Below are positions 2,430 to 35,956 of a DNA stretch of 64,000 nucleotides, in pieces. Within the stretch, counting starts at the first letter, position 1, and every line of letters starts with the position of its first letter. Under the pieces are notes generated by a model. It was not told the origin of the DNA, ran no database searches, and saw only the letters and a program-made list of their open reading frames with translations. Origin of the DNA: Candidatus Woesearchaeota archaeon. GTDB taxonomy: Archaea; Nanobdellota; Nanobdellia; Woesearchaeales; ARS49. The stretch lies in the NCBI GenBank assembly GCA_017609645.1, contig JAFCDQ010000003.1:62001-126000 (forward strand). Reading direction: 5' to 3'. The translations under genes and the position numbers were made by a program.

Positions 2430-2430
2430 T

Positions 2431-3816: not shown

Positions 3817-5246
3817 TTTATTTTGCTCCTTTTGGCATAATCTCCGAAAATATCTAAAAATTTAATTTTATTTGCATCAATTTTACCGTTTTCACCAATA
3901 TCGAATTTAAAATCCATAAGATTGATTAATTTCTCTGCTCCAATCACACATCTTCCATCTGTTTTTTGAGTAAAAAACTCATAAATATTTTCTGTGCCTT
4001 TTGCAGAAGCGCATGATAAAAGCAAGATTACTCCATCTTTTGTAACTGATTCAATTTTTTTGCCGTTTTTTTCATAAGGTCTGAAATAATCTGCGATTTC
4101 ATTATCAGATCTGTCTAAATTAGCTTTTTCATCTATTGAAACATTAAATCTTGGATCATCGCAGCCTAATGCAATAAGTTTGCCGTCTCCATGTCCAAGA
4201 ATTCCTGTAAATACTTTTTCAGGAACTTTTTCTTTTGTTTCATAAAAATCAGTTTCATCATTTGCTACAACAAAGTACGTGTCGCAGGCTTTTGATATTT
4301 TGTCATGAAATTCTTTGATCATATAGGGAGTTCTAAATACTCTGTTCCAGTCTTTTTTTGCAATAACTACAACTGCATTTGGTTTTTCAGTATCTTTAAA
4401 TGGAGCAAATATTTTTTTCAAATTATCTAAAGTAACGTATTTGCTTTCAACTCCTTGGATATAGCTGTTTGTTAAACCATAATCGTGTAATTGTTTAACA
4501 TTAAAATACCCTAGTGATTCAATGCCGTCAAAAATTGGCTCTCCTTTCATTCCAGTTATATCTCCTAATTCACTGGCATATTCTTTAAATTCTTTCAAAT
4601 TTTTTTCTAAGAAAGTTTTTGCATTAAAATCTTCAGATAATAACATCCCTATTTGTCCGTCTCCTGTTTTTATTGGATTTTTTTCTAAATTCTTAATAAG
4701 ATGATATCTAATAAATAATTCTGAGCCTTGTAAATCTAAAAAACCATGAGAAATATTGCCGTCTGCTTTTTTGGAGAATAATGATTCTGTTCTGAAAATT
4801 TGTTTTCCTTTTGAATTTTTGATGTTTAAAATGCTGTTAACATATTCGGGGTAGAATTCATTAAAATTTTCTTTACTTTCAGAATTCATATTTTTTAAAT
4901 TTTCTTCTAGTCCATTCCATAGCATCTTTATTTCTGAGGCATTTGCTTTGTCTTTGAAATTATCAACAAAATCTTTTGGAATGTATTCACAAAGAGCTTG
5001 GTATTCTTTTTCAGCTTTTTCAGCAAGTTCATTTTTTCTCATTTCTGTTGCTGTAATTGCATCAGGAACTTTGATCTGTTTTTTTTGAGGAAATATTGCT
5101 CGGACCATAGGTGTGAAAGCAAGAATAGCAACTAGTCCAGAAAGTAGTCCTTTTTTAGCATAATCTTTGCCTAACTCAATAAACTTCTGGAATTTGCCTT
5201 TTTCTTCAGGTTCGATTTTGAATGCATCATAGAGTATCATTTTCAC
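3813..5246 (-). CDS. Membrane-anchored clan-CD (caspase/clostripain-like) cysteine peptidase homologue
   Basis: 477 residues. A single membrane segment (about 33-52) follows a basic N-terminus, so the bulk is probably outside the cytoplasm or tethered to the membrane. The C-terminal third has the clan-CD pattern: a hydrophobic strand ending in GHGDG (His352), then a hydrophobic strand DGVILLLSCASAKG (Cys412), then a CVIGAEKLI strand. His-Gly followed by a Cys after a beta strand is the dyad layout of caspases, clostripain, gingipain and CHAT peptidases; the exact family is not clear to me. Residues 60-290 are helical and unassigned. The start is supported by AGGTG 4 nt before the ATG and a TATA box about 35 nt upstream. 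First gene of an operon with two helical-repeat membrane proteins (ATGA overlap with the next). Confidence 0.72.
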   Translation of the reverse strand: MKMILYDAFKIEPEEKGKFQKFIELGKDYAKKGLLSGLVAILAFTPMVRAIFPQKKQIKVPDAITATEMRKNELAEKAEKEYQALCEYIPKDFVDNFKDKANASEIKMLWNGLEENLKNMNSESKENFNEFYPEYVNSILNIKNSKGKQIFRTESLFSKKADGNISHGFLDLQGSELFIRYHLIKNLEKNPIKTGDGQIGMLLSEDFNAKTFLEKNLKEFKEYASELGDITGMKGEPIFDGIESLGYFNVKQLHDYGLTNSYIQGVESKYVTLDNLKKIFAPFKDTEKPNAVVVIAKKDWNRVFRTPYMIKEFHDKISKACDTYFVVANDETDFYETKEKVPEKVFTGILGHGDGKLIALGCDDPRFNVSIDEKANLDRSDNEIADYFRPYEKNGKKIESVTKDGVILLLSCASAKGTENIYEFFTQKTDGRCVIGAEKLINLMDFKFDIGENGKIDANKIKFLDIFGDYAKRSKIK

Positions 5247-6658: not shown

Positions 6659-6715
6659 AATCTAATAATAAATATTTATCTTTAATAAAGATTGTCATAT
6701 TTTTAGAAATTATCT

Positions 6716-10797: not shown

Positions 10798-12162
10798 TTA
10801 TTCTATTTCTTCTTCAGAATCCTTGATGTAATAATCAAGTATCTCGAAATTAGAATATCCTAATTCTTTTGCTTTTTTAAGATCTTTCAAACTTTCTTCA
10901 AATTTATCTATTTTGTTTAAGAAAGATCCTCTTTCAAAATAAGCATTAGCAGCTTTTGGATTTAATTTTATTGCTTTATTAAAATCTTCAAGAGCTTCTT
11001 TTTCTTTACCTAATCTGTAAAAATGTTCTCCTCTCCCAGTATATATTTGATAATGATTAGGATTTAATTCAATTGCTTTAGCAAAATCTTTTTCAGCTTT
11101 ATCATAGTTGCCCATTTTTGAATGTATATCTGCTCTTAATGAATATTTATGACAACCCAAAAGATCTTTTATTCCATTTTTTTTAACAGAAGCAAGATTA
11201 AATTCTTCATTTATTTTGATTGCTTTATTCATATCATTTATTGCTTTTTCATGTAACTTTAAATTACAAAAAGCCAGGGCCCTTAGTTGATATGCTCCTG
11301 AATTATTTGAAAATAATCTAAGAGAAGCATTGCAATGTTCTATAAGTTTATATGGATCTTTAAAATGAGCTAGACCCAAGGTTTCTAGATGAACTGCCAG
11401 TAATTGTTTTTTTGTTAAAGAAGGGAAAAATTCATGACATATTGGCCCTCCTACATCTATGGCGTATATTAAAGGTCTGAAAGAATGTTCAAATTCTTTG
11501 GCGCGTTTATAACTTTTTACTGATCCATTAGGAAGTTTTATTTTTTTTGTTGTTTCCCAATCAAAAGTTTTGCCAGATTTTAATTTATATCTTAAAAAAA
11601 CATGACATATATTATCCAAACCTGTTGTAACAACAGGAGAAACTTTTTCAGACAAACCTAACGCATCAAATACACTTAAGTATGTAAACACAAGAGTATC
11701 GCAGTCTAAACCTCCTTCCGCTAAACCTTCTGTTAAATAATATCTTGCTTTGTGTTCTTTAGTTTTATTGTCAACAATATCTCCGACAGATTTTAGAAGT
11801 TTTTTTGCTTCATCCTCAGAATAGTTAGCTTTTACTTTGATGGTTTTTTTAGATTCAGCAATTATTTCATCTAAAGTTGTCTTTGCTTTTTTATGATGTT
11901 TTTTATATTTCTCAGGCAGAAGTTCTGCTTCCAGAGTTAGAATTTTATAGCCAAAATTTGTTTCTTTTTCAGCTTTCTTTAATGCTTCTTCAATCTTTTT
12001 TGCATAAGAAAATCTTTCTCCTTCTTTGTAAACACAATATTCATCTGTTTTAGGATTTAGTCTTAAATCATGAACGCTGCAAGAAGAAAACAATCCTGCT
12101 AAAGTCACTAAACCTAGTGCAAACCCTGCTTTTATTGGTTTTAGAATTTTGTCTAGACTCAT
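10798..12162 (-). CDS. Lipoprotein with transglutaminase-like domain and TPR repeats
   Basis: 454 residues. The signal peptide ends in a lipobox-like LFSSC (Cys28). Residues ~60-210 carry a transglutaminase/SirB1-like triad: GGLDCDTLVFTYL (Cys154), NICHVFLRYK (His187) and TFDWETT (Asp201). Residues ~280-450 are about five TPR units (AEKDFAKAIELNPNHYQIY, ALEDFNKAIKLNPKAANAY). By family, the fold can be a protease, amidase or crosslinker; no substrate is visible. Its ATG is 2 nt after the stop of the upstream gene, and its N-terminus matches those of the next two genes in the operon, so the four are likely co-expressed on the cell surface. Confidence 0.85.
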   Translation of the reverse strand: MSLDKILKPIKAGFALGLVTLAGLFSSCSVHDLRLNPKTDEYCVYKEGERFSYAKKIEEALKKAEKETNFGYKILTLEAELLPEKYKKHHKKAKTTLDEIIAESKKTIKVKANYSEDEAKKLLKSVGDIVDNKTKEHKARYYLTEGLAEGGLDCDTLVFTYLSVFDALGLSEKVSPVVTTGLDNICHVFLRYKLKSGKTFDWETTKKIKLPNGSVKSYKRAKEFEHSFRPLIYAIDVGGPICHEFFPSLTKKQLLAVHLETLGLAHFKDPYKLIEHCNASLRLFSNNSGAYQLRALAFCNLKLHEKAINDMNKAIKINEEFNLASVKKNGIKDLLGCHKYSLRADIHSKMGNYDKAEKDFAKAIELNPNHYQIYTGRGEHFYRLGKEKEALEDFNKAIKLNPKAANAYFERGSFLNKIDKFEESLKDLKKAKELGYSNFEILDYYIKDSEEEIE

Positions 12163-12164
12163 TT

Positions 12165-13466
12165 TTATTCTTTTTCATTTTTTGGTGAATATGCTATTGA
12201 AAATTCTATTGTTTGGTGATAGAGGGCGATTTTTACTCCGCCTATTAACAAGAAATCTCCAATTCTTTTCTTAAAAGTGCCTTCTGCTGCGCTAATGTTT
12301 CTGCTATATTCATAATTATTTGATTTTATATTAGGATGATCTAGTATGTAAGAAAGACCGATGTCCGTGCCTTCATCATCAAAATCTTTAATTATTATTC
12401 CTATTTTGTGTGAGATGTTTTCTAGCTTTAATGAACTTGGATAGGTATATGACTTTTTTGAAAAATTTATTTGATAATGCAGAGAAACTTTATCACTTAC
12501 ATTCAAAATTGCTTCTGCATTAAAATCTAATCTTTCATGACCTGCTAAATTTATTGGTAAGTTTACATGACCTAAAAGAGAGACATTTTCATTAGAATAA
12601 CCGCATCCTATTCCTGCTTGTGCATATAAGTGACTGAAAATGATTGTTTGATCTGACTCTATGTCCTCTAATCCTAATTTAAAGCTTAGTTCACCAAATA
12701 ATCCTTTTTCTAATTCTTTCGCTAGTTTGTCTAATTCTAGTGGTTTAGTGCCAAAACTAAAAGAAGGAAAAGTAAGTTCTCCTGCAGTTAATATTTTGCC
12801 TTTTTCTTCTAAATAACTTCTTTTGAATGATAAGTTTCCGCCTAACCAATTTCCAATATTCCAGCTTTTAATATCTAAATTTGCAAATAATTCATATTCG
12901 AATTTATCTAAAGTATTTGTAAGCAATTTTAGTTCATCGGAAAAATAATCACTTCCCTTAGCTTTGCCGCCTATAACTAAGCTGCCCTTTAAGCCATCTT
13001 CTTTTATTTTATTTTTTTCCCAAGGTACCCAAAAGTCAGCATCAGGTTCTTCTTCTATTGGTGAAAATTCTAAATTATATTTATCTTTAAATACTCCTAT
13101 ATCCCAGTCTTTGATAACATAAAAATCACGATCTTTCTTTTTTATCACAGAATCTATTACTTTCACGTCATCTGTTTTCATTTCATCCATTATCTCTTGA
13201 ACATTTATTAAATTTGAATATTTTTTTATTAATGAGTTTAATTGTTTTTGTTCACTTTGTGTTATTTTTTTGTCTTCTATGATTTTTTCAAATTCTTTTT
13301 TGAAATTTCTTGTATTTTGTTCTTTACCTAAATCATGTGCATTTTTAGAATAAGCGGTATTTATAAAATTATAAGAAGAAAACAGACCTGCCAAAGTCAA
13401 TAAACCTAATGCAAATCCTGCCTTTATTGGTTTTGTAATTTTTCCTAATATTTTTTCTAATGCCAT
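12165..13466 (-). CDS. Exported beta-rich, barrel-like protein
   Basis: 433 residues from ATG 13466 (MALEKILGK); the longer frame to 13517 would overlap the previous gene, and the chosen start lines up with the N-termini of its neighbours. The signal peptide matches theirs but the lipobox Cys is Tyr (LFSSYNF), so it is probably not lipidated. Residues ~35-110 are helical; ~150-430 show alternating hydrophobic residues with tight turns (KGSLVIGGKAKGS, LYAQAGIGCGYSNENVSLLG, DIGLSYILDH, IEFSIAYSP), the pattern of an outer-membrane-type beta-barrel or a large beta-sandwich. No family recognised. A barrel would be surprising in an archaeon. Confidence 0.75.
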   Translation of the reverse strand: MALEKILGKITKPIKAGFALGLLTLAGLFSSYNFINTAYSKNAHDLGKEQNTRNFKKEFEKIIEDKKITQSEQKQLNSLIKKYSNLINVQEIMDEMKTDDVKVIDSVIKKKDRDFYVIKDWDIGVFKDKYNLEFSPIEEEPDADFWVPWEKNKIKEDGLKGSLVIGGKAKGSDYFSDELKLLTNTLDKFEYELFANLDIKSWNIGNWLGGNLSFKRSYLEEKGKILTAGELTFPSFSFGTKPLELDKLAKELEKGLFGELSFKLGLEDIESDQTIIFSHLYAQAGIGCGYSNENVSLLGHVNLPINLAGHERLDFNAEAILNVSDKVSLHYQINFSKKSYTYPSSLKLENISHKIGIIIKDFDDEGTDIGLSYILDHPNIKSNNYEYSRNISAAEGTFKKRIGDFLLIGGVKIALYHQTIEFSIAYSPKNEKE

Positions 13467-13479
13467 TTTTAATTGATAT

Positions 13480-16305
13480 TTATTTATTTTTTGCACGCAA
13501 TTGTTTTGCTTTTTCAAAGAATTTATTTGCTTCTTCTGCTCTGCCTAGCCTTACTAAAGCAACACCTTTATTGTTATAGGCATTAATTAATTTTGGATTT
13601 ATTTCAAGGGCCTTATTATTACATTTAATTGAATCCTCAAATCTTTTTAAATGATTTAATGCAGCGCCTTTGTTAATATAAGCATCAGCATGTTTTGGGT
13701 TTAGTTCTATGGCTTTATCATAAAATTTAATTGCATCTTCAAACTCACCTAAGCCATATAGAGTATTTCCTTTGCTATAATAACCAATTGTAAATTCTGG
13801 ATTTAGTTTTTTTGCTTTATCATAATGTTTAATTGCTTCTTCAAACTTACCTTGTCCGCATAAGGCATTTCCTTTGTCATAATAAGTTTCAGCATCTTTA
13901 GCTAATTCATCTGAAGATTTTTTTAGTTCTTTGGTTATTTCTTCAAGTATTTTGCAGCCTTTTTGTGTGTCTTTTTCTTCTGGTTTTGTGAAAAAGTTCA
14001 ATAATATCGCATCTAATACATCCACTAAATGTAAAGAATCTTTATCAGCTCGATTCATAGAGACACGAGGCCCTACTGTTTTTAGCCAATCCCGTTTAAT
14101 ATCTTTTGAATCAAGATATTCTTGCAACTCTGAGAATATTATTGTCTTTGTTTTATTGTTACGAATAATATATATATTTTCTGGGTCATGTGCAGATATT
14201 ATTGCTTTGCTGTCATTAAATTTCAATCTATATCCTTCTGTTGTTCTGACAAAATTATATTTTTCTTGTTCAGGTGCTTTTCCCCATTTTCTAATACCTT
14301 TTATTGTTTCAGTAAGATTTTCTCTAACATATTTGATAAGATCTTCTGCTTCTTCTCTATTTTCTTTATTAGATGAGAGTTGTTTATGCATTAAGTTCAA
14401 GTCCAGCATTCTTACAACATCTTCTGTTTTAGTATAGTCGCAAGAATCATAAGAGTTATTATCAACTAATTCTTTGTTTAATGCTTTTAAGAATCTTTTT
14501 TGATCTGCTTTAGCGACTTTATGACCTATTTCTTCTTTAACTTCTTCTTTTCCGCTTATTCTATTATCATCAAGTGGAATTACAAGTTTATAATATGCAT
14601 AATCTATTCCTTTTTTTACTAAATCATCCCAGTCAGAGAATTGTTTTGGTCCTCCTTGTCTGAACATTATTTCATATCCATTTGCTGTTCTGATTAAGCC
14701 TTCTATTTTTCTGTCAATAATTATTTTTTCTTCTAGAGTTTCTTTCTTTTCTAGAATAGGAGTTGTCTCTGCATCTTCTGTTGGATTTACTTTTTCTTTT
14801 TTTGGGATGGCAGGAATTCTAGGCCATGTTTTTGGAATTGTTTCTTTTTTTGTGTTTCCAGGAAGTTTATCTAGGGCATTTTTAGCATTTTCTTCAACTT
14901 CATCAAATTCACTTTTAGGAGTTTCATCAGTAACAGAGTTTTTCCTCGTTCCCATAATATACATTTGTATTCCTGCTTTTCTTAACTCTCCATTTTCTAT
15001 GTTGCCATCAGTTAATTTTTCGAATTCTTCTGGTGTTATTTCTCCAATAACATCAATTAATCCGCCTTTCTTTTTAACAAGCTCATATATTCTTTTCTTG
15101 ATTACACTGCTTTCTAAGTTTAGCTTGTAAGCTTTGCTTGCTAGCATTTCTCCATTATTATATTCTGTGAATTTGTCTTGTAAAACCATTAGTGGTCCGT
15201 ATTTACTATGTGTTTTATTATTCTCATCTGTTACAATCAATGTAGAAATATCATCCAGACTTGCATTTTCTAAAAATTGAAGTTCATAAGTTGTTCCTCT
15301 TGTGTGCTTTTTACCTTCAGCATCAGTATATTCTATAATTATTGCAAAATCATGTTCATAATTTTTTAAGTGTTCATCCAGAATCTTTGCGTTTTCTTTT
15401 ATTGTTTTTTCCAATTCAATTTGTTCATCTTGGTCTGCTTTAACTGCATCTAATCTGGCGGAGGTATATGATTTTGCAGTTTTTCTTATTGATTCTGCAG
15501 TTTTTCTTATTTTTTCTTTAGTCAGTCCCAAATCGTCATAATATTGGTTTAGTATTGTAATTACTTCATCTCCTAAATCAGGTTCATTAATTTCATTTAA
15601 TATTGGTATTAATTTTGCATCAGTTAAAAAACCGCCTTTGTATAATCTGCGGTCATCTTTCGTCCAAAGCCCAGGACTTTTTCCATCCATTCTTTCATCT
15701 ATGAATTTTTTATGTTCGTTTTTTAGGTGATAAAAATATTTTTCTTTTTTCTCTTCTGGATTTAAATCAAAATAATTAAAATCTTTATTTTCACTTTTTA
15801 TTGATTCTCGCACTAATAATGGCAAAGTTAATTTTGGATATATTTTTTTGAAGAAATCTAAAGCAGTTTCTCCTTCTTTTAATGGTAAAACCATATCTTT
15901 GAAAGATGGTTCTGATTTTTCATTATTTCTTTCAAGAATATATCTTGTTTTTCCGTCAACATCTACTTCTAAAACACATTCTATTCCAATTTTTCTCTCT
16001 ATTAAATCATTTATAGGTTTTAATTGAGAGATAAAGAATTCTGTTTGATTATCACTAATTTCATATTCGCTTTCAAGTTTCATTAATTTTTTTTGTTCTG
16101 AAGTTGTTATTTTCTTATCTATTAGAATTCCTAAAACTTCTTGTTTAAATTGTTCTGCGTGTATTGCTTTTGTTTGTGTTGGAGGATTTTGAAATCTTTT
16201 ATCAAAACTTTCAGGACTTTTACAAGAAGAAAAAAATCCTGCTAAAGCCATTAAACCCACGGCAAATCCTGCTTTTACTGGATTTAAAAGTTTTTCTAAG
16301 GCCAT
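13480..16305 (-). CDS. Large lipoprotein with C-terminal TPR repeats
   Basis: 941 residues. Signal peptide with lipobox-like FFSSC (Cys28), near-identical to those of the next two genes. The middle (~490-790) is homologous to the whole mature part of the 16308-17636 product: shared IRTANGYE(I/L)MF, EVKEEIGHK, YNFVRT, VSxxRxDxxxLHLVDVLD and KGCKIL blocks. The C-terminal ~130 residues are four TPR units (AIKHYDKAKKLNPEFTIGYY, AIKFYDKAIELNPKHADAY). Residues 40-480 are helical and charged, with no recognised domain. Function unknown; the TPR end suggests protein binding at the cell surface. Confidence 0.85.
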   Translation of the reverse strand: MALEKLLNPVKAGFAVGLMALAGFFSSCKSPESFDKRFQNPPTQTKAIHAEQFKQEVLGILIDKKITTSEQKKLMKLESEYEISDNQTEFFISQLKPINDLIERKIGIECVLEVDVDGKTRYILERNNEKSEPSFKDMVLPLKEGETALDFFKKIYPKLTLPLLVRESIKSENKDFNYFDLNPEEKKEKYFYHLKNEHKKFIDERMDGKSPGLWTKDDRRLYKGGFLTDAKLIPILNEINEPDLGDEVITILNQYYDDLGLTKEKIRKTAESIRKTAKSYTSARLDAVKADQDEQIELEKTIKENAKILDEHLKNYEHDFAIIIEYTDAEGKKHTRGTTYELQFLENASLDDISTLIVTDENNKTHSKYGPLMVLQDKFTEYNNGEMLASKAYKLNLESSVIKKRIYELVKKKGGLIDVIGEITPEEFEKLTDGNIENGELRKAGIQMYIMGTRKNSVTDETPKSEFDEVEENAKNALDKLPGNTKKETIPKTWPRIPAIPKKEKVNPTEDAETTPILEKKETLEEKIIIDRKIEGLIRTANGYEIMFRQGGPKQFSDWDDLVKKGIDYAYYKLVIPLDDNRISGKEEVKEEIGHKVAKADQKRFLKALNKELVDNNSYDSCDYTKTEDVVRMLDLNLMHKQLSSNKENREEAEDLIKYVRENLTETIKGIRKWGKAPEQEKYNFVRTTEGYRLKFNDSKAIISAHDPENIYIIRNNKTKTIIFSELQEYLDSKDIKRDWLKTVGPRVSMNRADKDSLHLVDVLDAILLNFFTKPEEKDTQKGCKILEEITKELKKSSDELAKDAETYYDKGNALCGQGKFEEAIKHYDKAKKLNPEFTIGYYSKGNTLYGLGEFEDAIKFYDKAIELNPKHADAYINKGAALNHLKRFEDSIKCNNKALEINPKLINAYNNKGVALVRLGRAEEANKFFEKAKQLRAKNK

Positions 16306-16307
16306 TT

Positions 16308-17636
16308 TTAATCATACGCCTCTTCAACATTATCTTTTATATAACTCTTAAGTCCTTCTTTTATTTCAGAAAGTATTTTGCAGCCTTTTTGTATGTCGTT
16401 CTTAGATGCTTTTGTGTAAAAATTCAATAATATGTTGTCTAATACATCAACTAAATGTAAAGCATTGTTATCTGATCTGTCTAAAGATACATGAGGGCCT
16501 ACTGAGTTAAGCCAGTCTTTATTGATTTCTTTTGAAGTAAGATACTCCTGCACTTCTGTGAATTTTCTTGCTATTGTATTGCCGTCAGATGAGGTTAAAT
16601 ATATATCTCCTGAGTTGTCATTAGATATTATTACTTTATATCCATCTATTTTCAATTTATAACCTTGCATTGTTCTGACAAAGTTATATTTTTGTTGTTC
16701 AGGTGCTTTACCCCATTTCGTTATCTTAGGTAAAGTTAAATCTAGATTCTTCTTGACGCATTCAACAAGAGATTCTGCATCTTTTTTGTTGTCTTCATTT
16801 AATGAAAGTTTTTTGTGCATTAAATTTAAATCAAGCATTCTTACCATGTCTTCCATTTTGGTGTAGTCATAGTCGTCATAAGAATCTGTATCAGAAACAA
16901 ATCTGTTTTTTAATTCTTTTAAGAATTTGTTCTGATCTATAGCTGAGATTTTATGCCCTATTTCTTCTTTTACTACTTCTTTTCCAGTGATTCTGTATCT
17001 ATGAATTTTAATTGAATTTTCTTCAATCGGAATAACAAGTTTATAGAATGCATAATCTACTCCTGTTTTTATTAAATCAACCCAGTCATCAAAATTTTTA
17101 GGTTCTCCTTTTTGAAACATTAGTTCATATCCATTTGCTGTTCTGATTATTTCATTCATTCGTTTCTCTAATGGAACATATTTAATAGGCTCAGTTGAAA
17201 GATCTTTTTTCTTAGCAGTTACTTTTGATTTTGGATTAATTAAGTCATCAAGTTTGCCAAATGCATCATCAGCTGCGTCTTCTACTTTACCATATTCATT
17301 TTTTGGAGTTACTTTTGAATTTGATTTTTCTTTTTTTCGATTGCCAGGAAGTCTGTCAAAGGCATTTTCAGCATTTCCTTCTACTTCATCAAATTCATTT
17401 TCTGTAACTTTCTTGTAACCAGTAGGAAATACATTATCACTGCCTTCTGTTTTATCTTCTTCTGTTTTTTTATTTTCTTGGTTATTTTTTGAATTTACAT
17501 TATGTTCTATGTTTAATTCTTTTACTTTAAGTTCAGCATCAATTTCAGCAGAAACTTTGCAACCATTAATAGTGTAACTGGCAATTGTTAATAATCCTAA
17601 CGCACCCATAATTTTGATTTTATTCCATAAACTCAT
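16308..17636 (-). CDS. Lipoprotein sharing its main domain with the 13480-16305 product
   Basis: 442 residues from ATG 17636, chosen because AGGAGGT lies 7 nt before it; an in-frame ATG at 17660 lies upstream of the SD. The signal peptide MSLWNKIKIMGALGLLTIA ends in INGC (lipobox). A low-complexity Asn/Lys/Glu stretch follows (to about 150), with two repeats of the type FDEVEGNAENAFDRLPGN. The ~300-residue domain behind it recurs in the neighbouring large lipoprotein (KITKWGKAPEQQKYNFVRT, LHLVDVLDNILLNF). It is first in a four-gene operon; its stop is 3 bp from the next start. Family not recognised. Confidence 0.85.
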   Translation of the reverse strand: MSLWNKIKIMGALGLLTIASYTINGCKVSAEIDAELKVKELNIEHNVNSKNNQENKKTEEDKTEGSDNVFPTGYKKVTENEFDEVEGNAENAFDRLPGNRKKEKSNSKVTPKNEYGKVEDAADDAFGKLDDLINPKSKVTAKKKDLSTEPIKYVPLEKRMNEIIRTANGYELMFQKGEPKNFDDWVDLIKTGVDYAFYKLVIPIEENSIKIHRYRITGKEVVKEEIGHKISAIDQNKFLKELKNRFVSDTDSYDDYDYTKMEDMVRMLDLNLMHKKLSLNEDNKKDAESLVECVKKNLDLTLPKITKWGKAPEQQKYNFVRTMQGYKLKIDGYKVIISNDNSGDIYLTSSDGNTIARKFTEVQEYLTSKEINKDWLNSVGPHVSLDRSDNNALHLVDVLDNILLNFYTKASKNDIQKGCKILSEIKEGLKSYIKDNVEEAYD

Positions 17637-17643
17637 TTTTGAT

Positions 17644-17682
17644 ACCTCCTGAAATATCATTATATGCTATATATATTTAATT
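17644..17682 (-). promoter_or_regulatory. TATA box and strong ribosome-binding site of the lipoprotein operon
   Basis: On the minus strand TTAAATATATA (about 17671-17681) is followed about 26 nt later by a predicted start near 17649 and by AGGAGGT (17644-17650) 7 nt before the ATG at 17636. This SD decides the start codon. Confidence 0.65.
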
Positions 17683-21435: not shown

Positions 21436-21513
21436 ATACTTCTGATAGGTAGTACTCATATATCAACAAACAGAAAGCTTTAAAACACACTCAGACCATT
21501 TTAAAGTGATACT

Positions 21514-21560
21514 TACTTAACACCCATCTTACTCAACTGCTTCTTCCACATCAATCCTAT
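21514..21560 (-). pseudogene. Copy of the 3' end of the 22864-23316 gene
   Basis: 41 bp (21520-21560) are identical to 22871-22911 and continue with one mismatch to a stop codon in the same frame, encoding MWKKQLSKMGVK plus TAA. Upstream (minus direction) the match ends abruptly. Together with the intact gene it flanks the TPR lipoprotein gene. The rest of the 21436-21587 spacer shows nothing else to me. Confidence 0.85.
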
Positions 21561-21587
21561 TTTTTAAGAATTAAAAGAGAATAAAAT

Positions 21588-22775
21588 TTATTTTTTGTTT
21601 TCTGTTTTTTTGTCAAGTTCTTTTGCTTTTTCTGTGTTTCCTGCTTTTTTGAAAAGAAATGAGGCATAGTCAAAAACTTCTTCTTTTTCGTATTTTTCTG
21701 CAGCTTTGATATAGTTTAATTTTGCTTTTTCTGTATTTCCTAGTTCTTCGTAAAGTTTTGCTGCGCGTTCAAAATATCTTGCTCTTGTTTGTTCGTAGAA
21801 ATCATCTTCTGCTTTTTCTGTGTTTCCTGCTTTTTCATAAAGTTCTGCTGCTTTTTCTGTGTTTCCTAATCGCAGTTCATAAAGTCTTCCTGCATCAGCA
21901 AAACTTTCTCCTTTTTCGTAGTTTTCTGCTGCTTTTTTTATGTTTTCAAGTCCTTCATAAATTCTTGCTGCAAAGTTAAACCATTCATGTTTTTCATAAC
22001 TTTCAGCTGCTTTTTTGTAGTTTTCTTTTGCTTTTTTTATGTTTCCTTGTTTTTCATAAAGTCTTCCTGCCTCATAAAAACCTGTTGATTGTTCATGGTT
22101 TTCAATTGCTTTTTCTATGTTTTCTATTGCTTTTTCTATGTTTCCTTGTTTCTCATAAAGGTCTGCTAATTCGTAAAAACATTCGTCTTTTTCGTAGTTT
22201 TCTATTGCTTTTTCTGTGTTTCCTTGTTTTTCATAAAGCTTTGCTGCTTCAAAAAAAAATCCTGCTTTTTCATGGTTTTCTGCTGCTTTTTCTGTGTTTC
22301 CTTGTTTTTCGTAAATTCTTGCTGCCTCTAGAAACCATTTAATGTTATGACTCTCAGCTGCTTTTTCGTAGTTTTCTATTGCTTTTTCTGTGTTTCCTTG
22401 TTTTTCGTAAATTCTTCCTGCCAAGCCAAACCATTCAAGTTTTACATAACTTTCAGCGTGTTTTTCGTAGTTTTCTCTTGCTTTTTCTGTGTTTCCTAGT
22501 TCTTCATAAAGTCTTCCTGCTTCATCAAAATCTTCGGCTTTTTCGTAGTTTTCTATTGCTTTGTATATGTTTCCTGCTTTTTCGTGAAGGACTGCGTTTC
22601 TCCAAAAATTTTCTGCTTCTTCGTAGTCTTCGTCTAATACAATTTTTCTTTCATTTTCATAATTTTGTGCTTTTTCAAATGAAGTTGTTTTACAACCAAC
22701 TAAATTTCCAAAGGCGACTAAGGCCAGAATTTCGAGTGTAATTATTCCTTTTTGAAATAAATTTTTAATATTCAT
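21588..22775 (-). CDS. Lipoprotein built of about ten TPR/SNAP-like repeats
   Basis: 395 residues. Signal peptide ends in a lipobox-like NLVGC (Cys28). Nearly all the rest is a degenerate array of ~30-35-residue units with the pattern AxxYEKxGNxEKAxENYEKA (for example RIYEKQGNTEKAIENYEKAA). The repeats are highly similar in DNA, so the array is likely to expand and contract. The helical superhelix would serve as a protein-binding surface outside the cell. The gene sits as a cassette between the intact 22864-23316 gene and a second copy of that gene's 3' end. Confidence 0.88.
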   Translation of the reverse strand: MNIKNLFQKGIITLEILALVAFGNLVGCKTTSFEKAQNYENERKIVLDEDYEEAENFWRNAVLHEKAGNIYKAIENYEKAEDFDEAGRLYEELGNTEKARENYEKHAESYVKLEWFGLAGRIYEKQGNTEKAIENYEKAAESHNIKWFLEAARIYEKQGNTEKAAENHEKAGFFFEAAKLYEKQGNTEKAIENYEKDECFYELADLYEKQGNIEKAIENIEKAIENHEQSTGFYEAGRLYEKQGNIKKAKENYKKAAESYEKHEWFNFAARIYEGLENIKKAAENYEKGESFADAGRLYELRLGNTEKAAELYEKAGNTEKAEDDFYEQTRARYFERAAKLYEELGNTEKAKLNYIKAAEKYEKEEVFDYASFLFKKAGNTEKAKELDKKTENKK

Positions 22776-22863
22776 TTTAGTTTTACCTTTAAATTATTGA
22801 TTTTTTATAAAAAGAAGACATTATATTTAAATGTTTCGTTTGTTATCATTGTTGAGTAAGTAA

Positions 22864-23316
22864 TCACTTTACACCCATCTTACTCAACTGCTTCTTCCAC
22901 ATCAATCCTATCTTCATTAAGTCATCTGAGAACTTCTTACTTATTCGATAAGTTTTCTTATACAAATCATACTCTACTAATCCCATTGCTTTCATTGGAG
23001 TTAATATTCTATCATAAAATTGTCGTTTGTTATAAGACAATTTTACTTTCTTTCCTTTATATTGTCCGTCGGAAAGAACTGCTTCATACTTGCCTTCATG
23101 TAATTTTGTTGCAAACAAACTCATTTCTGTTTTGGAAATTTCCCCTTTGTTATCGACGATATAATTAATTAATTCTTTTGCAACTATCACTTGCTGGCTT
23201 GTTGCAAAAACTATTTCAAGAATATTTGAAGGTAAATTAGATCTATCAAAAAGCATTACCATTTTATCAACTAAAGCGCTATTAGTATATAAAATTATTG
23301 CACTTTTAAAAGACAT
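22864..23316 (-). CDS. Unknown soluble protein with winged-helix-like C-terminus
   Basis: 150 residues. Residues ~1-60 are helical with TNSALVDKMVMLFDRSNLPS; residues 75-145 have a winged-helix look: ELINYIVDNKGEISKTEMSL, then YNKRQFYDRILTPMKAMGLV (likely recognition helix), then YDLYKKTYRISKKF (wing). Probably a DNA-binding protein. Its promoter (TTATATTTAAATG on the minus strand) fits a short or leaderless transcript. The last 41 bp of the gene are duplicated beyond the neighbouring TPR gene. No family name recognised. Confidence 0.72.
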   Translation of the reverse strand: MSFKSAIILYTNSALVDKMVMLFDRSNLPSNILEIVFATSQQVIVAKELINYIVDNKGEISKTEMSLFATKLHEGKYEAVLSDGQYKGKKVKLSYNKRQFYDRILTPMKAMGLVEYDLYKKTYRISKKFSDDLMKIGLMWKKQLSKMGVK

Positions 23317-29995: not shown

Positions 29996-30979
29996 ATGAA
30001 CTTATTGCCGTTTGAAAAAGTTGAAAGAGTTGTTCTTCAAAAGAGAGAAGTAGAGACTAATCTAGAGTTTGGCTGTCTGCCTGATAAAAGAACTATTCCT
30101 GAATTATTAGATAAAGGTGTTATTAATCTAAATAAACCTAAAGGGCCTACGTCTCATATGGTTTCTGATTATGTCAAGAGAATTTTTAATGCTAAAAAAG
30201 CAGGTCATGGAGGCAGTTTAGATCCTGGTGTGACAGGAATTCTTCCAACCGGATTAAATAAAGCAACAGCAGTTATGCAGGCATTGTTAACATCAGGAAA
30301 AGAATATGTTGCAGTCATGCATTTGCATAAAGATGTTCCTGAAGATGAAATAAGAAAAGCGTGTGAACAATTTATTGGTGAAATTACTCAATTACCTCCT
30401 AAAAAGTCTGCTGTGAAAAGAGTCAAAAGAAAAAGAACTGTTTATTATTTTGAAATTTTAGAAATTGATGGTAAGGATATTTTGTTTAAGATGGGTTCTC
30501 AGGCAGGAACTTATGTTAGAAGAATCTGCGACGATGTTGGAAAGAAATTAGGTGTTGGTGCTCATATGGCAGAATTAATTAGAACAAAAGCAGGTCCTTT
30601 TCAAAGTAAAGATTGGGTAACTCTCCAGGATTTAGAAGATGCTTTTGCTTATTATAATGAAAGTAATAATGATAAATTCTTGAGATATTGTGTTAAGCCA
30701 ATGGAATTTGCAGTTAATCATTTAGCAAAGATTTGGATTCTTGATAATGCTGTTGATACTTTAGCTCATGGAGCTCCTTTAAATATTCCTGGAATTGCAA
30801 AATTGCATTCAAACATTCAAGAAGGCGATCCTGTTGCAATTATGACATTAAAAGACGAGCTTGTTGCTTTAGCTGTTGCAAAACTCTCCTCAGAAGATAT
30901 TATGAAGCTAGATAAAGGTTTAGCAGCAACGAGTTCTAGAGTTTTGATGGACATAGGCATTTATACCACTTCTAAGTGA
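29996..30979 (+). CDS. cbf5: Cbf5/TruB pseudouridine synthase
   Basis: 327 residues. The catalytic block AGHGGSLDPGVTGILPTGL contains the active-site Asp; NLNKPKGPTSHMVSD, KEYVAVMHLHKD and the VRRICDDVGKKLGVGAHMAEL block are typical of archaeal Cbf5. The C-terminal ~75 residues are a PUA domain. Cbf5 makes pseudouridine in rRNA with H/ACA guide RNPs and can modify tRNA U55. A partial second copy of its last 138 bp lies at 31928-32056, beyond one intervening gene on the same strand. Confidence 0.96.
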   Translation: MNLLPFEKVERVVLQKREVETNLEFGCLPDKRTIPELLDKGVINLNKPKGPTSHMVSDYVKRIFNAKKAGHGGSLDPGVTGILPTGLNKATAVMQALLTSGKEYVAVMHLHKDVPEDEIRKACEQFIGEITQLPPKKSAVKRVKRKRTVYYFEILEIDGKDILFKMGSQAGTYVRRICDDVGKKLGVGAHMAELIRTKAGPFQSKDWVTLQDLEDAFAYYNESNNDKFLRYCVKPMEFAVNHLAKIWILDNAVDTLAHGAPLNIPGIAKLHSNIQEGDPVAIMTLKDELVALAVAKLSSEDIMKLDKGLAATSSRVLMDIGIYTTSK

Positions 30980-31038
30980 TTACAAACCGAAAGATTTATA
31001 AATGATTTATACTTAATCTCTCTTAAGGGTGACATATA

Positions 31039-31926
31039 ATGGTATTAAATGAACTAGAAAAAATTGAATATAAAGATCTTAATTTTGAGAGAAGAAAATA
31101 TGATAGTGGATTAACTTGTATTACAGGACCCAAAAAAAATCCAATTCAAAGAAATGAGATAGAAATTGAGGTTTATAATAATCTTATTGATGTATGTGAG
31201 AAAATTACTTCTGATGGGAAAATAGAGTTAACTGAAAACGGATTTAAATATATGCCAGTACAAAATCCAACTCCGCAGATTGAAGCAGATGAAAATAAAT
31301 ATCAAGGAGTAATAAGGATGCCAAAATTCTCATATGAGAGTTTTATTGATTTGACTGACAGGCTTGTGAAGATTTCTGGAGAAAAAGTTGAATTAAATAA
31401 AAAGGAATTTAAGATAGCGACTAAAAAAGGATTTGAACATGAATATTCTGATATTGGGGCGATGCTCAGAGTAAATCCAGCAGAAAAAAAAAGTTTCAAA
31501 GAAATAATGGATGTATTGAAAGACTATACTATTATAGGTAGTGCTATTGCAGGATTTACTTTAACAGAAACCTTTCTCGTAGGAGGTATAACTTATATGT
31601 TTACAGAAGATAACGTGCTTTCTTATGCTGCAGGAGGCATAGGTGCTTTATTGACTTTAGTGGCAGCAGGCTGCGCAATAGTCCCTGATCTATTATCAAT
31701 TGAGAAACAGTTTTTTAAAGATGCTGATGAAGTTTTTGATGCTTTCAAAAAGAACAAGAAGAAATGTAAAGATGAATGGAGTTTACGTGATTTAAATGGT
31801 TATAGTGGCAGAGCTTTACAAAGAAAACTGCCTGAAATGCAAAAACAAAAAGGAATAACTATCTCATATGAATCACCTGATCATGAAAAAATTGTTGAGT
31901 TTTTTGATTTTTTAGCAGAAGAATAA
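31039..31926 (+). CDS. Unknown protein with a paired membrane hairpin (cassette gene)
   Basis: 295 residues. Residues 1-165 are soluble and mixed alpha/beta, with two DLxDRLVKIS-type helices. Two close hydrophobic segments (about 172-192 and 197-219, ITYMFTEDNVLSYAAGG between them) form a membrane hairpin. The C-terminal ~75 residues are charged, with WSLRDLNGYSGRALQRKLPEM. GGTGA precedes the ATG. It lies between cbf5 and a copy of the cbf5 3' end, so it is probably a recent insertion. No family recognised. Confidence 0.75.
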   Translation: MVLNELEKIEYKDLNFERRKYDSGLTCITGPKKNPIQRNEIEIEVYNNLIDVCEKITSDGKIELTENGFKYMPVQNPTPQIEADENKYQGVIRMPKFSYESFIDLTDRLVKISGEKVELNKKEFKIATKKGFEHEYSDIGAMLRVNPAEKKSFKEIMDVLKDYTIIGSAIAGFTLTETFLVGGITYMFTEDNVLSYAAGGIGALLTLVAAGCAIVPDLLSIEKQFFKDADEVFDAFKKNKKKCKDEWSLRDLNGYSGRALQRKLPEMQKQKGITISYESPDHEKIVEFFDFLAEE

Positions 31927-31927
31927 A

Positions 31928-32056
31928 ATGACATTAAAAGACGAGCTTGTTGCTTTAGCTGTTGCAAAACTCTCCTCAGAAGATATTATGAAGTTAGATA
32001 AATGCTTAGCAGCAACGAGTGATAGAGTTCTAATGGACATTGGTGTTTATTCTTAA
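31928..32056 (+). pseudogene. Second copy of the cbf5 3' end
   Basis: From ATG 31928 the first 66 bp are identical to 30842-30907 in cbf5, then diverge slightly to a stop in the same frame (42 codons, MTLKDELVALAVAKLSSEDI at the start). It encodes only the last part of the PUA domain, too little to act as an enzyme. The reading frame is intact, so the event is recent or the tail was already complete when it was separated. Confidence 0.9.
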
Positions 32057-32099: not shown

Positions 32100-32360
32100 A
32101 TGAGTGAAGAAATAAAAAAAGAGCAAGGTTTCATTGCTTCTGTAAAGTATCATTTCAAGACTTTTGTTCAAAAGTATTTTAGAAAAAATAAAGAAGTAAA
32201 AGAAGAAGCTCCTAAAAGTAATGAAGATAACTTAACTGGAAAAGACTTAGCTTCCTTATTAGATATTGATCCTAGTAGAGGATTAAATTTGCATGAAGCA
32301 AATGAACTCTTAAATTATATTGAGCAGGATGACCCTTATAATCTTCCAGAAGATAATTAA
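32100..32360 (+). CDS. Small acidic protein, unknown
   Basis: 86 residues. A basic amphipathic helix (FIASVKYHFKTFVQKYFRKN) is followed by an acidic half with LASLLDIDPSRGLNLHEANELLNYIEQ. No Cys, no membrane segment. The basic-then-acidic helix layout might bind membranes or nucleic acids, but nothing is recognised. It follows the cbf5 tail copy. Confidence 0.6.
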   Translation: MSEEIKKEQGFIASVKYHFKTFVQKYFRKNKEVKEEAPKSNEDNLTGKDLASLLDIDPSRGLNLHEANELLNYIEQDDPYNLPEDN

Positions 32361-32379: not shown

Positions 32380-33117
32380 TTATTTTTGAAGCTTTTCTAT
32401 ACGAACTTCAAATTCCTTTTTTTCTTTGTCGTTGCTAGAGCTGCTGTATCGTTTTGCTTCAGAATCATACCAGGCAACTACTTTTTTAAATTCAGTGATT
32501 GCTTCTTTATTTTTGCCTGCTTTTTCTAAAGCATCTCCTAAGTTTTTTACATAATAAATGTAATCTGGAGAAGTTTCAACTGCTTTTGTATACGCAATAA
32601 CAGCGTCATCAAATCTGTCAGCTTTTTTATAAGCATGTCCTAATTCATTCCATAAGTCGCCATCATCTGAAAACATTTCTGTCCCTGTTTTCCATAATTC
32701 AATTTGTTTGTTGATAGCTCCATTTTCCCAGCCAACAAAACGTTCTGCGCATTCTCTATATTTTTTTATTGTTTTTTCATGATCTCCTGCATGAAAATAA
32801 CAGTTTAATAAAAGCATCCAGGCAGGAGCATCTTGTGTAGCATTTGAACCATAAGGAATATCCACATCTACGTCTTCTTCTAGAATTTTAATTGCTTTTT
32901 GGTAATTGCCTTCTTTCATTGATTTTTCTGCTTGTATTAAATAAAATCTAGGAGTTCCTGGTGTTATTTCTTCTTCAAGAGTTTTCACAATTGCTGTTTT
33001 TGTTTTTGCTTCAAGATTATCATCATTTGATTTGTTACAACCAGTAAAAAATGTGCCAATTGCAGCTCCTACGATAACAGGTACTAAAATTAATTTTGCT
33101 AATGTACTTTTTTTCAT
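32380..33117 (-). CDS. TPR lipoprotein
   Basis: 245 residues from ATG 33117; GGAGGAG lies 9 nt upstream, so the longer frame to 33135 is rejected. The signal peptide MKKSTLAKLILVPVIVGAA ends in FFTGC (lipobox). The mature part has about four TPR units (GNYQKAIKILEEDVDVDIPY, WNELGHAYKKADRFDDAVIAY, LGDALEKAGKNKEAITEF). It resembles the other TPR lipoproteins of this window in layout, but the sequence is not closely related. Likely a surface scaffold. Confidence 0.88.
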   Translation of the reverse strand: MKKSTLAKLILVPVIVGAAIGTFFTGCNKSNDDNLEAKTKTAIVKTLEEEITPGTPRFYLIQAEKSMKEGNYQKAIKILEEDVDVDIPYGSNATQDAPAWMLLLNCYFHAGDHEKTIKKYRECAERFVGWENGAINKQIELWKTGTEMFSDDGDLWNELGHAYKKADRFDDAVIAYTKAVETSPDYIYYVKNLGDALEKAGKNKEAITEFKKVVAWYDSEAKRYSSSSNDKEKKEFEVRIEKLQK

Positions 33118-33265
33118 TTTGTATATCTCCTCCATTAGTGGAATATAAGGTTAAATGAATAACAAGTATTTAAATGTTTCGTTTAACACTACTGTGAAAT
33201 AGTAAAAATTAGGAGTTAGCAATCCTGCCATAAATTTTAAATAAAGTTCACAAACTTCAATAAAT

Positions 33266-34099
33266 ATGGGTGAAGAACTTAATTTTGAAGACAATATTTC
33301 AATAGAAGAAGCAATTAAACAGCTTAATGGAGTTATATTGATTGATACATGTATGTTATCCTCTAACATTAATGAAGTAATGTTTAGTGCAAATAATTAT
33401 GAACATATAAAAGCAGATTTTCCATCTCATTATGAACGTTTAGAGAGAATTGCTGAGATTTTGGTTTTAGATAATGTATATGTTATTCAGGAAGTGTTTG
33501 AAGAATTTAAGACTTTTAAAAATAATTTAAAGAAAAAAGAGAATTTTTTAGATAATGGTTTAAACAATTGGGCAGTTAGAGTGCAAAATAGGAACAGAAA
33601 GTCAAAAATTAATTTAAATTCGGATTATAATCCTTTAGAAAGATTTCATAAAAGTTTTAGTAAATGTGTTGAAAATCAATCTAATTTTGGAAAATATATC
33701 CAGTTGATTGAAAGAAATTTAGGTTATTTAAATGATTTTATAATTAATCCAGGAGAGATTAATTATCTGCTTGATGGAGTTTGCAGATTTAAAGCAGAGA
33801 AAAATAGGGAAATTTCTTGTGAACTTAAGACTGATGAAAAATTGATTGCTGGTGGTTTGGCTTTAAGTCAAGATGAACCAACTCATATTTTGACTAAAGA
33901 TATTGAGATTTTCAAAATAGTTTCAGAGATGTCAAAAGAAAAAAACATAACTGATTTTTTTGAGAAAGATAAAGGAATGGTAAGAACAGCTGCTTTAACT
34001 GTAGTATATTTTGATTCTTCATTAAATTATATTTCTTTGCGTCATTTTCCAAGATACAGCACAAAAAAAACAGAAAGACTAAGAAAAATAAATAAATAG
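33266..34099 (+). CDS. PIN-like nuclease-fold protein
   Basis: 277 residues. Acidic residues are placed as in PIN domains: strand ILIDTCML (first Asp), VYVIQEVFEEF (Glu), LKTDEKLIAGGLALS (Asp) and ILTKDIEIFKI (Asp). A ~110-residue helical insertion (about 85-190) separates the first two from the last two. No antitoxin-like neighbour is present, so it may act in RNA processing rather than as a VapC toxin. Leaderless start (TTTAAATA 26 nt upstream). Homology is inferred from motif order only. Confidence 0.72.
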   Translation: MGEELNFEDNISIEEAIKQLNGVILIDTCMLSSNINEVMFSANNYEHIKADFPSHYERLERIAEILVLDNVYVIQEVFEEFKTFKNNLKKKENFLDNGLNNWAVRVQNRNRKSKINLNSDYNPLERFHKSFSKCVENQSNFGKYIQLIERNLGYLNDFIINPGEINYLLDGVCRFKAEKNREISCELKTDEKLIAGGLALSQDEPTHILTKDIEIFKIVSEMSKEKNITDFFEKDKGMVRTAALTVVYFDSSLNYISLRHFPRYSTKKTERLRKINK

Positions 34100-34141: not shown

Positions 34142-35956
34142 ATGCATATAGGGCCTTTATATTTTGGTTCAGTAGTTGGATTCGCTGCTTTATTATCTTT
34201 AGTGCCGTTAATTATTTTGTATTTCATTAAGCCAAGCCCTAAAGAGATGAGCATTCCTTCTTTGATGTTTTTTGTCAAATCCACTGGTTCAAGAAAACTC
34301 ACATCATTTTTTAGGTATTTTATGAAAGACTGGCTTTTTGTTTTGCAGTTTTTAGTCTTGTTCATGCTTGCTTTTACTTTTACTCAGCCTTTTGTTTATT
34401 ATCAGCATGATATTACTTCTGAAAATACAGTGATTGTTTTAGACGTCAGCGCAAGTTCTGAAACAGATGAAGGCACTAGAACAAGGTTTGATTATGCTTT
34501 GTCAAAAGCAAAGTCTTCTTTAGGAAACAGCAACACGATTATTCTTGCAAAGGATATGCCTTTTCTTGTTATGAAAGAAGCAAGTTATTCTGAGGCAAGG
34601 GATTATCTTGATGATCTAAAACCTAAACAGACTGAAACTAAGTTGGGTGAGGCAATAATTCTCGCCGGTGAAGTTCTTGCAGGTAAGGAAGGCAGAGTTT
34701 TAGTTATCAGCGACTTTATTAATACTGGCGGACAAGATCCTAATACTGCTAAAGCAGTGTTAGAAAGCAAAGGATTAGTTGTTGACTTTGTGAATACTAT
34801 GAAAGGAAACAAGAGAAACAATGTGGGCATTGTGAATTTAGATATTGATAATGTTCAGACTAGTATTTATGTGAAAAACTTTAATGATAAGCAGGAAACT
34901 GTTAAACTAACTGTTGCCTCTAAATCTAAAGAGCTTGTGATTCCTGCTAAAGGCACTGAATCATTTTCTTTCACAACTCCTTCTGGTGTTACTAAAATAA
35001 GTCTTTCTCCTAGTGATGATTTTCCTGTTGATAATGAAGCTTATTTAAGCGCGCCTTCTGGTGATAAGATTAAGATTGCGTTTATGACTAATAATCCTAG
35101 TGTTTTTCTGCAAAATGCTCTTGAAGCTAGCGGAGAGATTGAATTAGAAATTTTCCGGCCACCTTTGGTTCCTAAAGATGATTTTGATATTTATATTGTT
35201 GCTGATTTGGATAAATCTAAGGTTTTGTCAGGCACTTTCAGCGATTTAGAATCTAAAGCTAAACAAGGAGCTAGTTTTGTTTTCTGTGCTCAGGAAGATA
35301 GTGAGGATATTGATTATGTTTTCAGCCCTGTTGATTTAGAAGGAAGAAAAGACGGCGGTTTTGTTGTTGTTGATCAATTGAATACTTTCACAAAGAATGT
35401 TGATTTTGGCAGTGTTGAATATTTATTGAATGCAGAGCCTAAAGGAGATGATGCTTTGACTATTGCTAAAGCAGCAGACACTTCTTTGCTTGTTGTCAAA
35501 CCAGTTGGCGTGGGCAAGTCTGTTTATTTTGGATTTTTAGAGCAAGGCAGTGGTTTTAAATTTTCTCCAGGTTATCCTATATTTTGGACAGAGTTGATTA
35601 AATATCTTGCAAATAAACAGGATGCTACTAATTTAAATTTCAAGACAGGTGCGATGCTGGTGCTTGATAAGGCTCAGACTATTAAGACTCCGTCAATGAA
35701 AGTTAAGAAAGCTGCTTTGATATTAGAAGAGCAGGGGGTTTATTATCTTGAAGACAGGGCTATTACTGCAAATCTTTTGAGTGATAAGGAATCTGATGTT
35801 AATGCTGAAAAAGTTGTCGGCACTAAGAGTGTTGAGTATGAGTTAAAGCCTGTTAAGGAAAAAAGAGCGCTTAATTGGGCTCATTATCTTTTAATCATCG
35901 CTTTAATTTTGTCATTTGTTGAGTTATGGTATGTTAAGATGAGAGGTGACTTATGA
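34142..35956 (+). CDS. BatA-like membrane protein with von Willebrand A domain
   Basis: 604 residues. N-terminal membrane segments (about 9-28 and 62-82) flank the BatA-type loop FIKPSPKEMSIPSLMFF. The VWA domain follows, with a MIDAS DVSAS in VIVLDVSASSETDEG, then strand-rich Ig-like or GATase-like regions, and a final membrane segment (about 578-597). First gene of a six-gene operon with MoxR ATPase and DUF58 genes; its stop overlaps the next start (ATGA). In bacteria such operons help assemble or stress-proof envelope complexes, with MoxR as chaperone. Confidence 0.87.
   Translation: MHIGPLYFGSVVGFAALLSLVPLIILYFIKPSPKEMSIPSLMFFVKSTGSRKLTSFFRYFMKDWLFVLQFLVLFMLAFTFTQPFVYYQHDITSENTVIVLDVSASSETDEGTRTRFDYALSKAKSSLGNSNTIILAKDMPFLVMKEASYSEARDYLDDLKPKQTETKLGEAIILAGEVLAGKEGRVLVISDFINTGGQDPNTAKAVLESKGLVVDFVNTMKGNKRNNVGIVNLDIDNVQTSIYVKNFNDKQETVKLTVASKSKELVIPAKGTESFSFTTPSGVTKISLSPSDDFPVDNEAYLSAPSGDKIKIAFMTNNPSVFLQNALEASGEIELEIFRPPLVPKDDFDIYIVADLDKSKVLSGTFSDLESKAKQGASFVFCAQEDSEDIDYVFSPVDLEGRKDGGFVVVDQLNTFTKNVDFGSVEYLLNAEPKGDDALTIAKAADTSLLVVKPVGVGKSVYFGFLEQGSGFKFSPGYPIFWTELIKYLANKQDATNLNFKTGAMLVLDKAQTIKTPSMKVKKAALILEEQGVYYLEDRAITANLLSDKESDVNAEKVVGTKSVEYELKPVKEKRALNWAHYLLIIALILSFVELWYVKMRGDL

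Follow-up and report, generated by a model that had tools for sequence, protein, structure and literature searches.

Prophages such as e14 and phage 21 at the icd gene of E. coli leave behind them a restored 3' end whose differences are mostly synonymous, and each is a complete prophage with an integrase and a fixed site. The locus described here, behind the archaeal gene cbf5, resembles theirs in its restored, mostly synonymous 3' end; integrase and fixed site set the two apart. Homology-facilitated illegitimate recombination (HFIR) is known in Acinetobacter, Pseudomonas stutzeri, Streptococcus pneumoniae, and E. coli conjugation (PMC3240628, PMC5361080). It has also been invoked in genome comparisons for small variable segments. 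In bacteria, as proposed here, one junction of the entering foreign DNA is homologous and the other illegitimate, and the resident joint sequence can be duplicated. The bacterial evidence is experimental, however, whereas ours comes from scars in an uncultured archaeon in which no ComEC was found.

The nearest described pattern is the 3'-end displacement of Vibrio T6SS loci. In Vibrio cholerae, effector-immunity modules are displaced sequentially, and "orphan" 3' regions of rhs loci belong with this pattern; the authors propose HFIR (PMC5361080). A new module arrives at a shared upstream anchor and the old 3' end and old cargo are shifted downstream, much as here; the Vibrio anchor is a secretion-system gene with known effector-immunity pairs, whereas our anchors are housekeeping genes (cbf5, lgt, and a helicase gene) with mostly orphan cargo. 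Integrated elements of Thaumarchaeota sit in the 3'-distal ends of archaeal protein-coding genes (PMC6563490) and likewise target a conserved-gene 3' end that is restored or replaced. Those elements are mobile and generally have short att sites, while ours are single genes or gene pairs with diverged repeats of 36–129 nt and no recombinase in the cargo. Pneumococcal transformation yields merodiploids, tandem duplications in which two alleles adjoin, but the documented duplication, unlike ours, spans 107 kb, is unstable, and makes use of repeats already present (PMC3784515).

How ultra-small DPANN archaea gain genes is little understood, and the literature searched held no report of HFIR in them, which is a weak negative. 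The genome analyzed here (G000) is a 1.125-Mb MAG of four contigs (C1, C2, and C4 are named below) from a Woesearchaeota-like DPANN archaeon, the sole genome of its genus in the comparison set. The closest named matches to its Cbf5 are Woesearchaeota and Nanoarchaeota MAGs, and among the genome contigs searched no relative was nearer than 54%. The window, i.e., the whole stretch of DNA analyzed, spans 64,000 nt (G000:C2:62001-126000). We see about an even chance that its cbf5 locus is the scar of a horizontal transfer by one-sided HFIR. Displaced 3' ends of this kind would be self-dating scars that hold donor and resident allele side by side, making transfer rate, donor distance, and hot spots readable from one genome.

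Two copies of the cbf5 3' end enclose an orphan gene

What lies behind cbf5 in this genome? The features, in window positions, are as follows.

29996–30979, plus strand: cbf5, full and intact (Pfam TruB_N, TruB_C_2, PUA, and DKCLD; 45–65% amino-acid identity to Cbf5 of 52 relatives)
30842–30964, plus strand: repeated cbf5 3' stretch, first copy
30987–31004, plus strand: putative promoter, an AT-rich stretch resembling an archaeal BRE/TATA, picked out by eye 5' of the cargo, CCGAAAGATTTATAAATG
31039–31926, plus strand: cargo, an orphan 295-aa protein with a central hydrophobic, membrane-like stretch
31928–32056, plus strand: displaced cbf5 3' end, from the repeat alignment, with frame and stop kept
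32100–32360, plus strand: accessory 86-aa ORF without a family
32380–33135, minus strand: accessory TPR lipoprotein-like gene
33266–34099, plus strand: accessory 277-aa ORF without a Pfam family
34142–35956, plus strand: batA-like gene (BatA, VWA_2), ancestral neighbor of cbf5 and right edge of the variable region

A sequence-only reading of this DNA had claimed that 31928–32056 repeats the end of cbf5, with the first 66 bp identical and frame and stop kept, and that one unrelated gene on the same strand separates the copies. Both points stand. The stretch at 30842–30964 matches 31928–32050 at 113 of 123 nt (91.9%, E = 3.8e-43), the leading 66 nt are identical, and the mismatches are confined to positions 67–118 of the repeat. 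Homology begins exactly at an in-frame ATG of cbf5, 1 nt past the stop of the cargo, and the displaced copy keeps the reading frame as far as its own stop at 32054–32056, where it ends in S and stop versus TTSK and stop in full cbf5, the last codon being different. It has also lost a glycine that is nearly invariant among relatives (KGLA to KCLA), as expected of a dead copy.

The single 295-aa ORF on the cbf5 strand that separates the two tails has no match in Pfam, in PHROGs (E ≤ 0.01), in 56 relatives, or in IMG/VR, and was thereby ruled out as a member of a known family. Nor was the cbf5 tail found on the viral contigs of IMG/VR. The insert thus shows neither mark of a virus or provirus, a PHROG match or an IMG/VR relative of cargo or tail.

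Divergence of the tail pairs and the favored mechanism

Did the second tail arise in place, or did the two copies meet after evolving apart? The six tail pairs together show 38 differences, of which 26 are synonymous against an expectation of 9.4 (P = 1.6e-8); the counts are 6/10 for cbf5, 6/12 for the helicase gene, 8/8 for lgt, 3/3 for a 150-aa gene, 1/1 for a 246-aa gene, and 2/4 for cbf5 of the relative G005. This excess therefore indicates that each tail belonged to a working gene while the two were diverging, in separate lineages, before they met. Had the cbf5 3' end been duplicated locally in tandem, with decay setting in and a gene then landing by chance between the two copies, no donor would be required, but the dead copy would drift neutrally; because synonymous differences prevail, and because tandem alleles on two other contigs (below) would be left unexplained, we regard this account as very improbable.

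The pairs differ in where their mismatches fall. All 10 at cbf5 lie past position 66 (P = 5e-4 under a uniform spread; 0.01 when the six synonymous mismatches are taken alone), an identical block and then divergence, as read from a comparison of the two copies with each other. In the helicase pair, which taken by itself is only mildly enriched in synonymous differences, the mismatches run through the whole repeat. The latter is what a Campbell-type insertion would give, in which a small circle bearing tail and cargo joins cbf5 by one homologous crossover, and such an insertion would also produce the observed order of parts without a site-specific enzyme. For cbf5, however, it too predicts differences along the whole repeat, against the identical 66 of 123 nt (which gene conversion could mend), and end joining would still be needed to close the circle precisely at the point between the stop of the cargo and the tail. 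We hold it to be improbable.

One-sided HFIR fits the cbf5 mismatches with a downstream tail that is wholly resident and an upstream tail that switches from resident to donor at the crossover. In the scheme that follows, the donor and the polarity of the event are inferred, and so are the joining of the ends, the route of entry, and the selection that leaves the visible cases. DNA of a related lineage, carrying cbf5 and then a different accessory gene, would pair with the resident cbf5. Strand exchange within or upstream of the shared 66 nt would yield a chimeric, intact cbf5 with the donor 3' end and the donor cargo; the final ~138 nt of the gene at 29996–30979 would then be the incoming 3' end. 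The far end of the donor DNA, just past the cargo, would be attached to the resident cbf5 at a point 129 nt short of the stop codon of that gene, with no real homology between the two, and the resident 3' end would be pushed downstream as a dead tail, so that 31928–32056 would represent the original host tail. Recombination would remove long duplications, and insertions of other kinds would mostly disrupt a gene, so the survivors would be short displaced 3' ends behind conserved genes.

As HFIR would have it, the second junction lacks extended homology and falls at variable positions (boundaries of 129–36 nt, no common core), and the inserted DNA appears foreign to the recipient, judging from the absence of the cargo from the 56 relatives and the synonymous type of tail divergence. 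No family match for ComEC was found in G000, so natural transformation is without direct support. At three loci the cargo ORFs end intact, 1–28 nt from the junction, and the displaced stretches are shorter than 130 nt; HFIR by itself predicts neither, and selection must therefore be invoked.

The cbf5–batA junction in relatives

Is the same junction variable in related genomes? The batA-like gene is the ancestral downstream neighbor of cbf5 in this family, and G000 has it only at 34142. In eight genomes (G009, G010, G012, G014, G016, G020, G022, and G038) batA directly follows cbf5 with a gap of at most 146 nt, and in eight (G000, G002, G005, G007, G011, G017, G023, and G025) the gap is expanded to 681–5,863 nt and holds 0.7–5.9 kb of unrelated accessory DNA. 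With eight tight and eight expanded gaps, the junction is recurrently filled with accessory DNA, and it offers a testable transfer hot spot in the family.

The sequence-only reading had predicted relatives with an empty site, in which the gene at 32100 would directly follow cbf5. The empty site exists in the eight relatives with tight gaps, but the neighbor there is batA, and the gene at 32100 is itself accessory. A finding that would have spoken against that reading, both tails and the cargo at the same place in all relatives, was not seen; the cargo is absent from the 56 relatives.

The cbf5 tail is single in all relatives examined except G005, G017 (a likely second tail), and G025 (a weak one). 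G005, a member of a different genus, repeats 51 nt from the end of its cbf5 at 92% identity ~1.3 kb downstream, with the frame and a stop intact; the gene in between encodes an AAA_14/DUF4143 ATPase and lies on the other strand. The boundary thus lies at 51 nt in G005 versus 129 nt in G000, and the cargo differs too. In G017, LPGTYPK appears again 55 nt past cbf5, with one residue between it and a stop and with synonymous changes only; this tail was found via an amino-acid match, which biases its synonymous count, and it was left out of the pooled test. It is likely a displaced cbf5 tail and looks like an older remnant. NTYPPFKRE and a stop in G025 make a weak candidate. Four expanded gaps have no displaced tail, which is therefore not an obligatory companion of the accessory DNA. 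In the G025 gap (L214, G025:C40), ~0–465 nt past cbf5, minus-strand ORFs that by eye resemble a RelE/ParE-type toxin and a small antitoxin precede the weak cbf5-like tail.

Displaced 3' ends elsewhere in the genome

How many genes of G000 carry a displaced tail? An unguided search for local direct repeats in 507 kb of C2 and C1, with paralogs set aside, yielded five coding 3' ends with a displaced copy: those of cbf5, the 150-aa gene, the 246-aa gene, a split-helicase gene, and lgt. Raising the sensitivity and including 14 kb of C4 (~0.52 Mb in total) yielded a sixth, that of a tyrosine recombinase gene. The survey covers ~46% of the genome, in stretches. A scan for downstream duplicates of gene 3' ends had been proposed in the sequence-only reading, and it thus returns six genes in ~0.52 Mb. 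The chance that a random stretch of such lengths overlaps a stop codon is 0.03–0.12. The additional loci of C2 and C1, in window positions unless a contig is named, are as follows.

22864–23316, minus strand: conserved 150-aa gene adjoining ftsZ (second locus)
22861–22914, minus strand: 3' end of the 150-aa gene, full copy
21588–22776, minus strand: cargo of the second locus, a TPR lipoprotein-like gene
21510–21563, minus strand: displaced 3' end of the 150-aa gene (54 nt, 92.6%, three coding differences, all synonymous, stop kept)
C2 146233 and 146598: tail pair of the 246-aa gene, with a 67-aa cargo
C1 56608 and 57816: tail pair of the split-helicase gene
C1 58722 and 57742: tail pair of lgt
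3349–3823, minus strand: mirror-type locus, upstream copy of the duplicated 5' end, fused to a C terminus of repeat type
1962–2436, minus strand: mirror-type locus, downstream copy of that 5' end, with which a 901-aa gene begins

Two more loci of the cbf5 layout had been claimed within the window. The pair at 21510–21563 and 22861–22914 has that layout, whereas the pair at 1962–2436 and 3349–3823 is its mirror image, with a duplicated 5' end (475 nt, 94% identical). Over the loci, the boundaries lie 129, 98, 62, 54, 51, and 36 nt from the stop, and the repeats have no common recombination core beyond AT-rich words. The helicase 3' end was ruled out as a broken gene, the same ~220-aa split gene occurring in relatives.

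Several repeats stand apart from this tally. Those at 12081, 13373, and 16223 were set aside as paralogous lipoprotein signal regions. Clusters of TPR/lipoprotein-like genes at 21588–22776 and 10798–17660 of the window (minus strand) have signal regions in common and form tandem paralogs adjoining the variable loci. A few further local repeats are intergenic or ambiguous. Contig C1 (G000:C1:1-927) opens within an SDR gene, in its 3' end, and the final stretch of that gene appears again (~95 nt identical) in the next SDR gene, followed by a frame-shifting deletion; the repeat is ambiguous between tandem paralogs and a further displaced tail and is uncounted in the survey. On C2, two short intergenic direct repeats (39 nt at 95% and 45 nt at 80%) occur in matching order at 227670–227755 and 228310–228407.

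Could such junctions be made by the assembly? Contigs of two coexisting strains, joined end to end where their genes differ and overlapping by short flanks, would show the tandem-allele layout and the synonymous divergence of the overlaps. Their frequency points the same way: five in 0.52 Mb of G000 against one (cbf5 of G005) in ~1.5 Mb of relatives (P = 0.005). All overlaps are at most 129 nt, i.e., of short-read scale, and contigs C1 and C2 start inside repeated stretches. Against this, the overlaps differ by up to 12–13%, with mismatches throughout, more than assemblers or scaffolders usually bridge; Ns are absent at the junctions, and the recorded contamination is 0.02%. Random contig ends would usually cut the cargo ORFs (coding fraction 0.95), yet these are intact. 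The same layout at cbf5 of another genus, the older-looking remnant in G017, and a cbf5–batA gap that is accessory-filled in 8 of 16 genomes whatever the assembly are likewise hard to square with chimeric joins. An artifact of exact k-mer overlap was ruled out for the helicase, lgt, and 246-aa pairs, which have no identical blocks of k-mer length, an argument that does not cover cbf5. We judge assembly chimerism unlikely, though the foremost of the alternatives; if the junctions were such errors, the same signature would detect strain chimeras in published MAGs.

Tandem alleles and a possible site-specific element

Two loci preserve more of both alleles. On C1 the order is helicase gene, X (322 aa), and 62 nt of the lgt 3' end, and then 98 nt of the helicase 3' end, Y (a HAD phosphatase), and lgt. 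One join of a helicase–X–lgt allele with a helicase–Y–lgt allele gives this order of tails, whereas two separate insertions would give the opposite one; from the gene order, we propose that a donor allele with X may have been joined to a resident allele with Y. The locus on C4 follows the same scheme of two alternative alleles in tandem: the tyrosine recombinase gene, a 316-aa gene, an Lrp gene, and an 83-nt element are followed by 51 nt of the recombinase 3' end, a TrmB gene, a 559-aa gene, and the 83-nt element again. The insert at each of the two loci also includes a portion of the gene or sequence that borders it on the far side. Under one-sided HFIR, a homologous junction paired with an illegitimate one accounts for a gene that is chimeric yet intact, for boundaries that vary, and for alleles in tandem.

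Would a site-specific element do as well? In that case a non-autonomous unit with a copy of the target 3' end would be inserted by a tyrosine recombinase acting in trans, and the gene would be restored. The layout, the restored 3' end, the synonymous tail differences, and the empty site at cbf5–batA in eight genomes all fit, cbf5 is targeted in two genera, and G000 has one tyrosine recombinase, the 3' end of whose gene is itself one of those displaced. The targets, however, are six unrelated genes without a common core, the helicase and lgt pairs have no identical core at all, and the unequal cbf5 boundaries of the two genera leave no constant att core. No recombinase is present in any of the cargo inspected. 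As had been said of the locus from its sequence, no integrase is visible in the cbf5 insert; the sole tyrosine recombinase found lies on another contig, and no serine recombinase was found. Neither cargo nor cbf5 tail turned up on a viral contig, and a search for self-tails behind related recombinase genes of relatives gave no clear case. The 62 nt of the next gene in the C1 insert, and the far-side sequence at two loci, are unlike an att-bounded element. We place this explanation next in order, also as unlikely.

The sequence-only reading had favored an element that restores the 3' end of its target. Its core survives, in that DNA has been gained behind cbf5 and the 3' end appears replaced by a diverged incoming copy, as the empty site, the absence of the cargo from 56 relatives, and the other displaced tails suggest. 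What falls away is the defined attachment site, given varying boundaries, six unrelated targets, no core, and no recombinase in the cargo. A bolder variant, which we rate as a long shot, is a dedicated gene-capture route in this archaeal family that would deliver cargo and a replacement 3' end to the 3' ends of housekeeping genes, possibly by means of the lone zinc-ribbon tyrosine recombinase, with conserved genes serving as landing pads for single accessory genes.

That recombinase, the only tyrosine recombinase found, is a 404-aa protein with a zinc-ribbon-like C terminus and lies with its displaced 3' end at 6665–12757 of L241 (G000:C4:155000-168800). In the same stretch, the 83-nt direct repeat, with one mismatch between its copies, flanks the recombinase tail, the TrmB gene, and the 559-aa gene.
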